DNA of 64,000 nt. Origin: Streptomyces rimosus. Lineage in GTDB: Bacteria; Actinomycetota; Actinomycetes; Streptomycetales; Streptomycetaceae. The DNA lies in NCBI RefSeq assembly GCF_008704655.1, contig NZ_CP023688.1, forward strand, positions 3,038,001-3,102,000, read 5' to 3'. The position numbers and the translations under genes are program-made. This document shows, in pieces, positions 52,654-64,000 of the stretch. How positions within the stretch are numbered: the first letter of the stretch is position 1; each line of letters starts with the position of its first letter. Below the pieces are notes generated by a model, which was given only the letters and a program-made list of their open reading frames with translations, had not been told where the DNA came from and searched no databases.

Positions 52654-52725
52654 GCCCCCGTAGCTCAGGGGATAGAGCAACGGCCTCCGGAGCCGTGTGC
52701 GCAGGTTCGAATCCTGCCGGGGGCA
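52654..52725 (+). tRNA. tRNA-Arg (anticodon CCG)
   Basis: A full cloverleaf can be drawn: acceptor GCCCCCG/CGGGGGC, D stem GCTC/GAGC, anticodon stem ACGGC/GCCGT with loop CTCCGGA (anticodon CCG), and T stem GCAGG/CCTGC with loop TTCGAAT. CCA is not encoded. It decodes CGG. A terminator follows, and the low-GC accessory stretch begins directly downstream. Confidence 0.96.
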
Positions 52726-52743
52726 CCTTGTACGAGGTGCCTA

Positions 52744-52783
52744 AAGACCCCATCATCAGCGGAGAAGCTGAGGGTGGGGTCTT
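52744..52783 (+). terminator. Terminator after tRNA-Arg
   Basis: AAGACCCC (52744-52751) pairs with GGGGTCTT (52776-52783), and the inner bases AT..GGGT extend the stem partly. The last arm supplies a short T stretch. Confidence 0.65.
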
Positions 52784-52971
52784 AGTCCATGCGTGGAACA
52801 TGTCACGCCGCAGGACGTACTGGCGGCGGTGCGCTGCAGTTTCCTGCGTCTCTACCTAGCGTGCGGAGAGCAGCGGTGCTAGGACATGCCGACTCAACGC
52901 CCTTCGGGATTGGCTTCAACCGTCTTCCGCGTCGACGCCGGCCCCAGACCCCGCAGTCGAGGGCCCGAAGG

Positions 52972-53760
52972 TTACTCTCCATCAGGACTGATGTGTTCGG
53001 CAACGGCGCTTATCTCCTTAACCAAGCTTTCGCCGGCCGTGATCGCACCCTGAAAGACGGGAGCAGCTTGGTTGAATACCACACATGCCGCGATCAGTCC
53101 CAGGAATGCCTTCTTCCAGCGACTGGCGTTGCCAGGTTCCACGTTCACCAACGTCGCCCCGGCCTGAGTCAGCGACCCAATCACGGCACTTGCTTCTTCA
53201 GCCACTCTGGCCGTCCCGAACAGGTCGGAGTTTTCAATGAGCCAGATCAAATGGCGGATTTGAGACACCAACGCATCCCGGACAGGTCCGTTTATTTCTG
53301 AGTCTTCCATTGCGGTGAGCAGGTCGACCCACTCATTGCACTGCCGGGACATCTCCTCGAGGTTAGTAGCCCTCGGCGCCGCTCCCGACCCCACGAGGTG
53401 CCCCGAGATCAGATCAGCTGCGGATTCGAGATGATCCAACTTGTCCTCATTGAACATGATGGCAGGCGCGCGAGTGCCATCGTTCCAGTTATGGAGGGGC
53501 TGCATTACCGCCCCCCACCAATCCGCCACATGACGTTCGTAGCGTAGGCGCGACCTCTCGGGCAGAGAACTTATCTGCCGGATCGTCATTTGCAGAAGGA
53601 CAGTAACCTCTGCGTGGCGTCGTACGAAGTCACCGCTGTTCCATTCGGCATCTAGCACTTTGCACCAAGCGGCGCCAAGCGACGACTCACCTGAGTTCCG
53701 AACACTTTGCAAAAGGGTGTGCAGGCGGTGTGCTGCCGTGTTCTCATTGGAAATACTCAT
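52972..53760 (-). CDS. Unrecognised protein with hydrophobic C-terminal segment
   Basis: 262 residues, no family recognised. The first 200 are soluble and helical in character. Near residue 215 WKKAFLGLIAACVVFNQAAP begins a hydrophobic stretch, and AITAGESLVKEISAVAEHIS follows, so a membrane-associating tail is possible. Codon use is far less GC-biased than in the core genes, and the gene lies next to a tRNA: signs of transfer. It is divergent from the DUF262 gene by 188 bp. A TAGCGT -10 (53781 to 53776) and GGTGGGG before the ATG could serve it. Association with the DUF262 gene is inferred from position only. Confidence 0.7.
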   Translation of the reverse strand: MSISNENTAAHRLHTLLQSVRNSGESSLGAAWCKVLDAEWNSGDFVRRHAEVTVLLQMTIRQISSLPERSRLRYERHVADWWGAVMQPLHNWNDGTRAPAIMFNEDKLDHLESAADLISGHLVGSGAAPRATNLEEMSRQCNEWVDLLTAMEDSEINGPVRDALVSQIRHLIWLIENSDLFGTARVAEEASAVIGSLTQAGATLVNVEPGNASRWKKAFLGLIAACVVFNQAAPVFQGAITAGESLVKEISAVAEHISPDGE

Positions 53761-53886
53761 ACCCCACCACTCGTCACGCTACTCCGTACCAGAACTGACG
53801 TCTGAAGGTACCAGCCGCGCCGGCTTCGACACCCGCCCAGGTCGGACAGAGCTACCGAGCCTGCGCCTCGTCGTGCCCTCGACCGC

Positions 53887-53916
53887 AAGACACCTACTGG
53901 AAGCCGACGGTAGGAT
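53887..53916 (+). promoter_or_regulatory. Candidate promoter of the DUF262 gene
   Basis: AAGACA (53887-53892), 18 bp, TAGGAT (53911-53916). It would give a short leader containing GGAGG, 8 nt before ATG 53949. Confidence 0.45.
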
Positions 53917-53948
53917 CAACCTCCCCTAGGGCGACGGAGGTTCTTCGG

Positions 53949-55706
53949 ATGGCCATCATCAAACAGGCTCAGCGTCAGACTCTCGGGCAGCTGATCGGTG
54001 CCAACAATCCCGTGGTGACAGTGCCTGATGACAGTCAACGCCAGTACGCCTGGACGAAGAAGGAGGTTGACGTTTTCTGGTCCGACATTGAGAAGTTCAA
54101 GGAAGGCCGAGAAAACGGGCGGGAGTCGTCGTCTGAGTACTTCATCGGTCCCATAGTTACGATCACGGCAGACTCGGTGCAGGCCCGCTCGCTGCTTGAT
54201 GGTCAGCAACGGCTGACCACATCGACCATCCTGATCGCCGCCATCCGAGACATTCTTTGGGGAATGAGATCTGCGGAAGGGGTATCGAGCGCTAACAACA
54301 TCCAGCGGGATTATATTGCCCGAAAGTCTGGCCGCAAGGACCCCATGGAATACTTCCTGGTCCTATCGTTGTTTGATCGCGACTTCTTCCGAGACAACAT
54401 ACAGGACTGGAGCGAGATTACAGGGGAATGCCCTAGGCTTGAAAAGCCTACGCGTCCTTCACATAAACTCATCTTGGACGCCTACAGCAATTTTCGTCAG
54501 AAAATCACCAATCGCCTACGAGCGCACCCCGACGCCGAAGCGCGTTTGGATTACCTAGACTCGTTGCGGGAATGCTTGATCAATGGTCTGGTGTTCGTGG
54601 AGATCCAGACACCCTCATCTAGCGACGCAAACGAGGTGTTCGAAACAATCAACTCGAGAGGGAAAGACCTTTCCACTGTAGACCTTGTTCGCAACTTCCT
54701 GATGGAGAAAAGCATAAGCGATCACGAGAAGTCGCGGGTGAATGATGCCTGGCGATCACTTCTCGATGGGTTCGACCGGCGCGAGGAGATCGAAAAATTT
54801 CTGCGTCATTTCTGGGTCTCGAAGCATGGCGACGTCAAGTCACATAGTCTATATTCAATCATCAGGAAGAACCTGAGCGATCGCTTCGACGAGCGGCCCC
54901 AGCAATATGGAGTTGGGGCATTTTCCGCCGACCTGGAGGGGGCAGCAGGGCGGTACGCCGAACTCATCACGGGCAACACCGGCGACAGCAACTTCGACGC
55001 CTCGCTCGGCGAGGTAAAGGCTATGAACGCCGACGCCCTTTATCCGCTACTACTCTCCGCCTCCGGGTATCACAAGTACGCCGACCTGCAGACCCTTCTT
55101 GATGCCTCCATCAGCTACTACGTGCGCTGGACAGTAGTGGGGCGACGCGAGTCGACTCTACTGGAGGAGAACCTATTTAGCATAGCCAAGGAAATGTCTA
55201 AGGGTGGCACGATTGAAGAGGCGGTACAGAAAATCCTGGGGTGGATTCCGGACGATGAGACGTTCGCGGCAGATTTCAGAGATGCCGTAGCACCGAAGCA
55301 GTCACAAGCTCGCTACCTCCTTGCCAAGATTGAGCAGCATTTGCGACTTGAGGCCGAGGTGCACGAAGAGGTAGTTCTAGGCGACGGTAAAGTGTATGTC
55401 GAAAACATCTACCCCCAAAAGCCCGCAGGAGAGTTGCGCCTAGAAGACCACGACACATGGGTCAGCCGACTGGGCAATCTCACTCTTCTGGCCGGTAAGA
55501 AGAATCAGACTATATCCTCGCGTTCATTGCCGGAGAAGAAGCATCTCTACTCCGGCTCGGCTTTGCTGGTTTCGTCCCGCACGAATGTCGAGGACTTGTG
55601 GGACGAGGAAAGTAACAGGTGGCGCGTTGAAGGCATCGAGGCACGTCAACAGCTGATGGCGAAGATCGCACTCAACGTCTGGCCGAGTGGCGCCCGTTGG
55701 GCGTGA
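53949..55706 (+). CDS. DUF262/DUF1524 protein, GmrSD-type restriction-like
   Basis: 585 residues. The N-terminal ParB-like DUF262 domain has VPDDSQRQYAWTKKEVDVFW, then SLLDGQQRLTTSTILIAAIR and VFETINSRGKDLSTVDLVRN, the standard GmrS motifs. The C-terminal part matches DUF1524 (GmrD, His-Me/HNH): LGNLTLLAGKKNQTISSRSL and KKHLYSGS are intact, but the expected xEHIxPQ reads VENIYPQ, Asn (AAC) where the catalytic His belongs. GmrSD enzymes are NTP-dependent type IV nucleases against modified phage DNA. Low-GC codon use and position after a tRNA suggest a transferred defence gene; the Asn may have inactivated it. Confidence 0.85.
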   Translation: MAIIKQAQRQTLGQLIGANNPVVTVPDDSQRQYAWTKKEVDVFWSDIEKFKEGRENGRESSSEYFIGPIVTITADSVQARSLLDGQQRLTTSTILIAAIRDILWGMRSAEGVSSANNIQRDYIARKSGRKDPMEYFLVLSLFDRDFFRDNIQDWSEITGECPRLEKPTRPSHKLILDAYSNFRQKITNRLRAHPDAEARLDYLDSLRECLINGLVFVEIQTPSSSDANEVFETINSRGKDLSTVDLVRNFLMEKSISDHEKSRVNDAWRSLLDGFDRREEIEKFLRHFWVSKHGDVKSHSLYSIIRKNLSDRFDERPQQYGVGAFSADLEGAAGRYAELITGNTGDSNFDASLGEVKAMNADALYPLLLSASGYHKYADLQTLLDASISYYVRWTVVGRRESTLLEENLFSIAKEMSKGGTIEEAVQKILGWIPDDETFAADFRDAVAPKQSQARYLLAKIEQHLRLEAEVHEEVVLGDGKVYVENIYPQKPAGELRLEDHDTWVSRLGNLTLLAGKKNQTISSRSLPEKKHLYSGSALLVSSRTNVEDLWDEESNRWRVEGIEARQQLMAKIALNVWPSGARWA

Positions 55707-55744
55707 AGGCATCAAGTGCACGGACACGCTACTCCTCGTCCACG

Positions 55745-55849
55745 CTACGTCACGGGTGCACTGCCATGCGCTGGAATCCTGATGGCCAGGTCGCGCGATA
55801 GATCATGCTTGGTGATGCGTGCTGAGGCGCCATAGAGTGTGATACTCAC
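55745..55849 (-). CDS. Possible 34-residue small ORF
   Basis: GTG 55849 to TAG 55745 encodes a peptide beginning VSITLYGASARITKHDLSRD. GAGGG lies 4 nt upstream but inside the 3' arm of a perfect hairpin. The opening resembles the T(V/I)TVYGAS start of small Streptomyces proteins as I recall them, but the rest diverges, so this may be a decayed copy. Very uncertain. Confidence 0.2.
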   Translation of the reverse strand: MSITLYGASARITKHDLSRDLAIRIPAHGSAPVT

Positions 55850-55851
55850 CG

Positions 55852-55891
55852 ATCCCTCTGACCAGGTGTTCGCGCATCAGGTCAGAGGGAT
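55852..55891. repeat. Perfect 12-bp inverted repeat
   Basis: ATCCCTCTGACC (55852-55863) and GGTCAGAGGGAT (55880-55891) are exact complements with a 16-nt loop. On the minus strand the second arm contains the ribosome site of the possible small ORF. Confidence 0.75.
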
Positions 55892-56013
55892 GCCACGATG
55901 GCCAACTAGGTGCCACTGAACAATATTGAGTCCCCCGAGCTCGATTCGAGATGCTCCCTGGGCAATCATGCGAGCGCCCAAACACAGAGTGGCAGAGGTG
56001 GCTTCGACATCAG

Positions 56014-56490
56014 TCACCCCCTGGTGGGCACCCGGTCCGACGCCGGCCAGACATACGGCAGCCCTGACGGAACATCCGGAAAATACGTCCGATAATGCTC
56101 CGGATCCTTGGTCACCAGCGCTGACTGATGGCTCCGATGGAACTCCGCCTCCCCCAGCCAATTGGGCAATTCCCCGGCGTCCGAGAGCTCCGTGTACGAG
56201 CGGATGGAGGCCCGTGGGCGGTATGAGGCGAAGTCCGTGGCCAGTGTGGTGGCGCAGGTGTCCCGGCGTCCCGCCTCCGTCCACTGCCGGCACATTTCCA
56301 GGCCGTAGCGGACGAGTGCCTCCTCGTAGCCCTGCCACATGCGGACGGCCGGGTGGTGGCGCCAGCCGTAGTCCGGGACGGTGAGGCCGCGGAGGACCTG
56401 GAGGGTTTCCACCCGTTGCTTGCCCAGGCGGCGGACGTCGAGGACGGCGGCGGAGGCCGCGAAGTCGGGGTACGGAAGGAAGGTCTGCAT
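56014..56490 (-). CDS. MSMEG_6728 family protein (pyrimidine-dimer glycosylase-like)
   Basis: 158 residues. I recognise the MSMEG_6728-type family from MQTFLPYPDFAASAAVLDVRRLGKQRVETLQVLRGL and HPAVRMWQGYEEALVRYGLEM; the end reads YRTYFPDVPSGLPYVWP. The family is related to phage T4 endonuclease V-type pyrimidine dimer glycosylases, and the N-terminal MQTF..., Arg-Lys-Gln and Tyr positions are consistent, but activity is not shown. High-GC codon use marks it as ordinary genome content. The long frames running through it on the same strand are shadows. Confidence 0.82.
   Translation of the reverse strand: MQTFLPYPDFAASAAVLDVRRLGKQRVETLQVLRGLTVPDYGWRHHPAVRMWQGYEEALVRYGLEMCRQWTEAGRRDTCATTLATDFASYRPRASIRSYTELSDAGELPNWLGEAEFHRSHQSALVTKDPEHYRTYFPDVPSGLPYVWPASDRVPTRG

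Positions 56491-56625: not shown

Positions 56626-64000
<7,375 letters not shown>

Follow-up and report, generated by a model that had tools for sequence, protein, structure and literature searches.

Proteins of the GmrSD family are defined by motifs that include DGQQR, (I/L/V)(E/D)H(I/L/V)xPQ, L(G/A)NLxLLxxxN and NxxFxxKK, and in the defining study the histidine of the second motif is proposed as the general base, with the adjoining acidic residue and a later asparagine as metal ligands (PMC4619093). BrxU, of the BrxU/GmrSD type IV restriction enzymes (PDB 7P9K), carries an Asp-His pair in which the histidine is essential: its H475A variant, altered in the DHIYP motif, neither cleaves DNA nor confers phage resistance, yet its ATPase activity is that of the wild type and ATP still drives the dimer-to-monomer shift (PMC8565348). 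DndI, of the IscS-DndBCDE-DndI system (PDB 9JFL), and SspE (PDB 7DRS, 7DRI) sense phosphorothioate (PT) marks through Tyr25 and Tyr30, respectively, and the DndI N541A variant shows lowered nicking and no phage defence (PMC11662687). SspE, which is longer (771 residues in 7DRS) than the enzyme described here, is PT-dependent through that tyrosine (PMC11662687) and has an HNH nickase (PMC9646914). In the literature search, made by title or the start of the abstract and covering few subscription papers, no GmrSD protein lacking the histidine was found.

The window, meaning the whole stretch of 64,000 nucleotides of Streptomyces rimosus DNA that was analysed, contains an enzyme gene of this kind in which the motif histidine is replaced by asparagine, with a partner gene of no known family lying divergently beside it. 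Our overall best reading, on which we are evenly balanced, is an accessory two-gene NTPase module, probably anti-phage, that does not rely on normal HNH cleavage.

Architecture and motifs of the enzyme

The enzyme gene begins with ATG, contains no internal stop and encodes 585 residues. Its Pfam matches to GmrSD_N (1.5e-31) and GmrSD_C (2.1e-18) both pass the curated cut-offs, giving the fused DUF262 and DUF1524 arrangement of the GmrSD type. The features of the gene are as follows, with fractions referring to rows of the 64-protein tree presented below.

53949..55706, plus strand: fused DUF262-DUF1524 (GmrSD/DndI-like) protein, 585 aa, HNH general-base His replaced by Asn486
54033..54035, plus strand: Ser29, aligned with the site of the PT-sensing tyrosine (DndI Y25, SspE Y30)
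54198..54212, plus strand: DGQQR NTP-hydrolysis motif, D84-R88, intact here and in 35/35 His-less rows
55389..55391, plus strand: Lys481, Lys or Arg in 35/35 His-less and 2/29 His-bearing rows
55398..55418, plus strand: VENIYPQ replacing xEHIxPQ, with E485 (metal ligand by homology) retained and N486 in place of His
55470..55505, plus strand: LGNLTLLxxxxN, second nuclease motif, with N510 in 64/64 and N519 in 62/64 rows

The preliminary description had claimed a DUF262-DUF1524 protein with a named set of motifs, and every one of them was found, namely QRQYAW, DGQQRLTT, ETINSRGKDLS, VENIYPQ and LGNLTLL, followed by Asn519, K530, Y534 and S537. Its claim of an asparagine one base away from the HNH histidine also stands, the codon of residue 486 being AAC at 55404-55406. 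Set against the published family motifs, DGQQR is present, the (I/L/V)(E/D)H(I/L/V)xPQ motif departs at the histidine and retains its remaining residues, and L(G/A)NLxLLxxxN is present as LGNLTLLAGKKN, with the asparagine one residue beyond the published spacing. This asparagine, N519, aligns with the family asparagine in 56 of the 57 distant rows among the matches listed, and with N541 of DndI. The NxxFxxKK motif is not found as such, position 524 being Ser and the Phe position, 527, being Leu, with Lys530 retained.

The best PADLOC profile of the enzyme is the candidate family HEC-06 of PADLOC-DB (E=2.1e-102, full length), which is defined by sequence and was compared by profile alone, a comparison that is silent on the histidine and the partner. 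A second, distant DUF262 match occurs in the same genome (G000:C1:2154360-2155034) within an 852-aa open frame, at 29% identity and over query residues 7-252 only.

Relation to phosphorothioate-dependent systems

The predicted structure agrees with DndI and SspE in overall fold, matching 9JFL and 7DRI by Foldseek and VIA, and differs from them at individual sites. At the position preceding QR in the DUF262 domain, Ser29 stands where DndI has Tyr25 and SspE has Tyr30, and Asn486 where DndI has His508 (numbering from the alignment). The residue-29 site is Ser in 61 of the 64 tree rows and Val in the other 3, and Tyr in 35 of the 57 distant rows listed. A search for DndC gave no match in the window's own genome, the control having matched in 5 of 14 genomes. 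With serine in place of the sensor tyrosine and DndC not found, PT sensing by the enzyme is unlikely.

Three distant Streptomyces relatives (L046-L048, about 28-34% identity) adjoin Dnd-type genes. The neighbours at L048, the one locus on which family names were scanned, score as Dnd/Pbe genes; its DndC/D/E-type neighbour clusters recur at L046 and L047, and a PbeA-type gene occurs in L047 and L048 only, suggesting that these loci may represent DndI-type systems in Streptomyces. The divergent partner was not found beside any of the three by profile search.

Distribution of the histidine among relatives

The search with the enzyme found 542 proteins, and the 120 highest-ranking ones were aligned. 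The tree was built from 64 of the first 66 listed proteins (P0003-P0068), excluding the fragments P0039 and P0065 as well as the motif column, and P0003, one residue apart (V475G), represents the window enzyme in it. The histidine is absent from 35 of the 64 rows, where Asn (25), Tyr (4), Ser (3) or Gln (3) takes its place, and present in 29, three outgroup rows among them. The fragments P0039, P0065 and P0069 likewise lack it, and so does every full-length homologue of at least 71% identity among the best 120 of 542. Among the matches listed, 55 of 57 more distant proteins (P0066-P0122) retain it, the two exceptions being P0119 and the fragment P0069 (58% identity to the query over the covered part), and distant copies in other Streptomyces genomes have it in 23 of 23 cases. 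Enzyme homologues were also found in Kitasatospora and Microbispora (P0053, P0059). Retention in 55 of 57 distant listed relatives, set against loss in 35 of 64 tree rows, suggests that the loss occurs more than by chance.

Asn486 is no accident of one strain, and the enzyme belongs to a conserved His-less group. Alignment with DUF1524 homologues, the check proposed in the preliminary description, places Asn recurrently in a conserved group (25 of the 35 His-less rows), and an asparagine confined to this strain, which that description would have taken as pointing to simple inactivation, is at odds with these counts. Simple inactivation in one strain is ruled out by the clade-wide loss, P0003 having Asn486 as well. 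The tree requires two changes between His and its absence, and nine residue changes at the site. The AU test does not reject the grouping of all His-less rows in one clade (p=0.093); independent losses are therefore not established, and one loss, two losses, or one loss with one regain would all be compatible with the tree.

Constraint and erosion of the HNH domain

All 35 His-less rows are 574-594 aa long and keep DGQQR, QRQ[Y/F][A/S]W and FETINSRG. An acidic residue (E/D) occupies position 485 and Asn position 510 in 64 of 64 rows, and the exceptions at N519 are P0021 (Lys) and P0027 (Asp), both His-less. The third-motif Asn524 is kept in 8 of the 27 rows of the main His-less group (lost in 19) versus 23 of 26 His-bearing rows, and the second His-less group keeps it throughout (8 of 8 rows). 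Measured against the middle region, the HNH region evolves at 7.50/5.50 = 1.36 and 2.71/1.12 = 2.42 in the His-less groups and at 2.78/2.36 = 1.18 and 0.78/0.76 = 1.04 in the two His groups; relative to the N-terminal region, the values are 3.41 and 5.72 versus 2.22 and 3.77, a less clean contrast. From the faster HNH/middle rate and the loss of Asn524 in the main His-less group, the HNH site looks partly relaxed, not abandoned.

NG86 dN/dS values for the enzyme were 0.020-0.085 in 4 of 18 pair-by-region comparisons among the window, L031, L032 and L033, the other 14 being saturated in dS, as was the pair L035/L036 in all 3 comparisons; values obtained at a dS of 2-3 are unreliable. An enzyme that is full length and probably constrained is supported by these alignments, although dS is saturated in most comparisons. 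Decay as a pseudogene is unsupported: DGQQR and a near-complete length are seen in every one of the 35 His-less rows, and the computable dN/dS is low.

Position 481 also distinguishes the groups. The two His-bearing rows with Lys or Arg at this site are P0045 and P0068, and the His-less fragments have it in 3 of 3 cases. Few evolutionary events lie behind these counts, so the association serves as a lead and carries no statistical weight. Placed beside a dead site, a positively charged residue might help the protein to bind DNA or change the chemistry. Lys481 was set aside as a replacement catalyst, for it marks the group, but through few evolutionary events and with two His-bearing rows sharing it.

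Consequences for DNA cleavage

Characterised nucleases give a range of outcomes when this histidine is missing. HpyAV H295A is described as retaining about 1% activity, with none detectable in extracts for H295N, H295K, H295D and H295E (PMC2816704), I-PpoI H98A as keeping residual activity through another histidine and other routes (PMC11325842), and PacI as using tyrosine for its general base (PMC4081073). Judged by analogy with these enzymes, the cleavage activity of the window enzyme has probably been lost or become very weak. A dead or strongly impaired nuclease is favoured on three grounds: the site is occupied by four different residues, BrxU needs the equivalent histidine, and HpyAV H295N shows no detectable cleavage. 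Rows with Asn, Ser or Gln are most likely dead or very weak nucleases, and the four Tyr rows could differ from them in activity. Of the options left by the preliminary description (a dead nuclease, use of another residue or metal geometry, or a binding or decoy role), the first is thus favoured, in its dead or strongly impaired form, and sequence cannot fully separate the three. The Lys/Arg481 signature, the serine at the PT-sensing site and the divergent partner gene had all escaped the preliminary description.

The leading alternative, which we consider unlikely, is that the protein still cuts DNA by means of another general base (a conserved neighbour such as His501, the new Lys481, or bulk solvent), at a lower rate or with altered requirements for pH or metal. 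The His-less residual activity of I-PpoI and HpyAV and the tyrosine of PacI offer precedents, and the metal ligands E/D485 and N519 are retained together with the structural N510; this retention, however, fits a working or weakly working site equally well as a dead one. His501 is invariant in the close clade (61/61 rows), but it is equally invariant in the His-bearing close relatives, which means that it is not a replacement that arose with the loss. Lys or Arg at 481 does accompany the loss of histidine, whereas the site itself has been filled by four different residues, with turnover inside the clade, and the third-motif asparagine is eroding in the main His-less group. The reported inactivity of HpyAV H295N and H295K in extracts, and of BrxU H475A, also speaks against continued cutting.

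The divergent partner gene

The partner gene is read away from the enzyme gene, and its features are listed here.

52972..53760, minus strand: partner gene, 262 aa, all-helical model, without known family, accompanying the enzyme in the Streptomyces loci and genomes that were analysed
53053..53109, minus strand: C-terminal hydrophobic helix of the partner, residues 218-236, mean hydropathy 1.87, candidate membrane segment or bundle core
53761..53948: intergenic region of 188 bp between the two divergent start codons

No sigma-70-like promoter match was found in 52700-56100. The partner model is all helical with a mean pLDDT of 81.8, residues 232-262 being mostly below 50, and the hydrophobic C-terminal helix recurs at a mean hydropathy of at least 1.6 in 38 of 42 partner proteins. 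Partner homologues form 41 clusters among the matches listed, and those with an organism name are all from Streptomyces. One of them, P0125, is a 185-aa version with 99% identity, whose shorter length may come from the choice of start codon or from truncation in a sister strain. The window partner gave no Pfam or NCBIfam match at thresholds of 0.1 and 1. Across 38 homologues, Pfam matches were only scattered, a single member giving the best at E 0.016. Against PHROGs, the window copy reached E 0.041 and the divergent P0161 reached 0.0068, in weak matches to entries of unknown function, and a search against PDB sequences gave nothing better than E 0.095.

The linkage of the two genes and their divergent layout are direct observations. 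The partner lies divergently beside the enzyme, with an intact reading frame, in 12 of 12 distinct Streptomyces loci, six of them His-less (the window, L031, L032, L033, L035 and L036) and six His-bearing (L034, L037, L038, L039, L041 and L042). At cut-offs of E<=1e-100 for the close-clade enzyme and E<=1e-8 for the partner, applied to the same draw of 392 genomes of the genus, both genes occur in the same 6 genomes. Pairwise identities of partner and enzyme co-vary across the 12 loci (r=0.96, Mantel p=0.0001), which may reflect no more than common inheritance of one locus. Partner dN/dS was 0.075-0.196 in 6 of 15 His-less pairs and 0.073-0.291 in 12 of 15 His-bearing pairs, the rest being saturated, with the same unreliability at a dS of 2-3. 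Beside the Nonomuraea enzymes (L040, L079), the profile search for the partner returned nothing significant. The partner accompanies His-bearing enzymes too; it therefore did not arise as a replacement for the nuclease, and its presence is independent of the loss of histidine.

This linkage bears on a second alternative, quite unlikely in our estimation, in which the enzyme is a binding or decoy protein that, by means of NTP and the positive charge at its dead site, occupies incoming DNA or blocks phage processes, with no effector and with the partner as an accessory or regulator. The DUF262 and DUF1524 halves are kept whole, a new positive residue adjoins the dead site, SspE binds DNA under GTP control (PMC9646914), and DndI has its activities coupled to the hydrolysis of ATP and to PT marks (PMC11662687). 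By itself, however, a decoy leaves the partner linkage unexplained. Very unlikely is a third alternative, in which the partner restrains the nuclease of His-bearing ancestors, and the His-less clade descends from them in a tamed or decaying state: the partner is divergently encoded as a separate unit, and DndI without phosphorothioation is described as staying nuclease-active and damaging cellular DNA (PMC11662687), yet a pure inhibitor would be free to decay after the nuclease died, whereas all 6 His-less loci have an intact partner, with the low dN/dS given above in the 6 of 15 His-less pairs whose dS could be computed.

Genomic site and neighbours

The pair lies in a stretch of about 3 kb in which GC content, in 500-base windows starting at 52751-55751, is 0.51-0.61, compared with 0.64-0.76 on either side, in agreement with the low-GC DNA claimed for it. 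The tRNA gene next to this stretch is the following.

52654..52727, plus strand: tRNA-Arg(CCG), with a variable site beside it

The placement of the enzyme gene beside a tRNA is correct in part; the tRNA ends at 52727, and the enzyme gene lies 1.2 kb off with the partner gene in between. An empty-site comparison was made with three (L070-L072) of six relatives with an nrtL-type match. In two of these three (L070, L072), synteny with the window passes through the tRNA and then ends; in L071 it ends ahead of the tRNA, which was not found there. Synteny ending just past the tRNA in two of the three relatives indicates that the pair sits at a variable site. No convincing tRNA attachment repeat was found within the window.

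The enzyme occurs in 6 of 392 genomes of the genus and in 4 of 394 genomes of an overlapping family draw, and the locus is an accessory module. No relatives of the enzyme were found in viral contigs. Among plasmid records, the best match is NZ_LT559118.1 from Nonomuraea, the others among the 20 matches listed being at or below about 30% identity. That record (L079) is 11.85 Mb long, chromosome-sized yet filed as a plasmid, and bears a His-bearing homologue of the enzyme.

A protein with PLD, ResIII and DUF3427 domains lies near or adjoins the pair in 8 of 12 loci, a count based on mechanical gene calls. Three examples of the full PLD-ResIII-Helicase_C-DUF3427 architecture are given.

L031:11802-15038
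L036:5752-8940
L042:11988-15128

The copy on L031 matches a PADLOC profile for a type IV restriction enzyme. The protein is found in 116 of 392 genomes of the genus, including 4 of the six pair-bearing genomes; many of these genome matches were reported with one stop inside the matched stretch. In the window's genome there is no full-length match, only two partial matches to the helicase region (best E 8.2e-8). As a constant third gene it was rejected: present at 8 of 12 loci, common in the genus and absent at full length here, it is a neighbour and not a required part. Its frequency in the genus leaves the neighbourhood as weak support for a defence role.

Downstream of the pair lies a homologue of Pyr_excise, a pyrimidine dimer DNA glycosylase (56014-56490, minus strand), which was found in 2 of 20 relatives besides its own genome, with no tRNA in the stretches examined around those two copies. 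Further along, a 2438-aa open frame (56626-63942, minus strand) runs nearly to the window edge and by eye looks like a non-ribosomal peptide synthetase.

Proposed mechanism and significance

The preliminary description had named the enzyme a phage-defence candidate, which is upheld as plausible for a defence gene in foreign-looking DNA. We regard an anti-phage role of the locus as somewhat favoured. In the accessory two-gene module that we prefer, the enzyme keeps its NTPase motif, metal ligands and structural asparagine, and cleavage would be abolished or very weak with the clade's general-base histidine gone. The enzyme would most likely bind DNA or another phage cue, hydrolyse NTP and switch conformation. 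The output would then pass via the helical partner and not through normal HNH cutting, which is the weakest step, and the partner is only tentatively assigned as the output of the system. One possible history is that the partner supplied a second output, whereupon the cutting step became dispensable in some lineages. In its most specific form, which we consider doubtful, a pseudo-restriction enzyme with its NTPase and metal site kept would act as an NTP-driven sensor, and the helical, possibly membrane-anchored partner as the effector. If this sensor and effector reading is true, this lineage has converted a restriction enzyme into a switch for signalling or abortive infection.

In the studied relatives BrxU, SspE and DndI, the NTPase half gates or precedes HNH cutting, and cutting is required for defence. 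The comparison of sequences suggests that the two-gene system described here may be independent of normal cutting. A lineage that lacks the catalytic histidine yet retains its fold, its NTPase motif and a linked partner is a natural separation-of-function set, in which His-bearing and His-less versions of one two-gene locus are found within one genus. Such a set lets one ask whether proteins of this kind defend without cutting, and what role the partner has.
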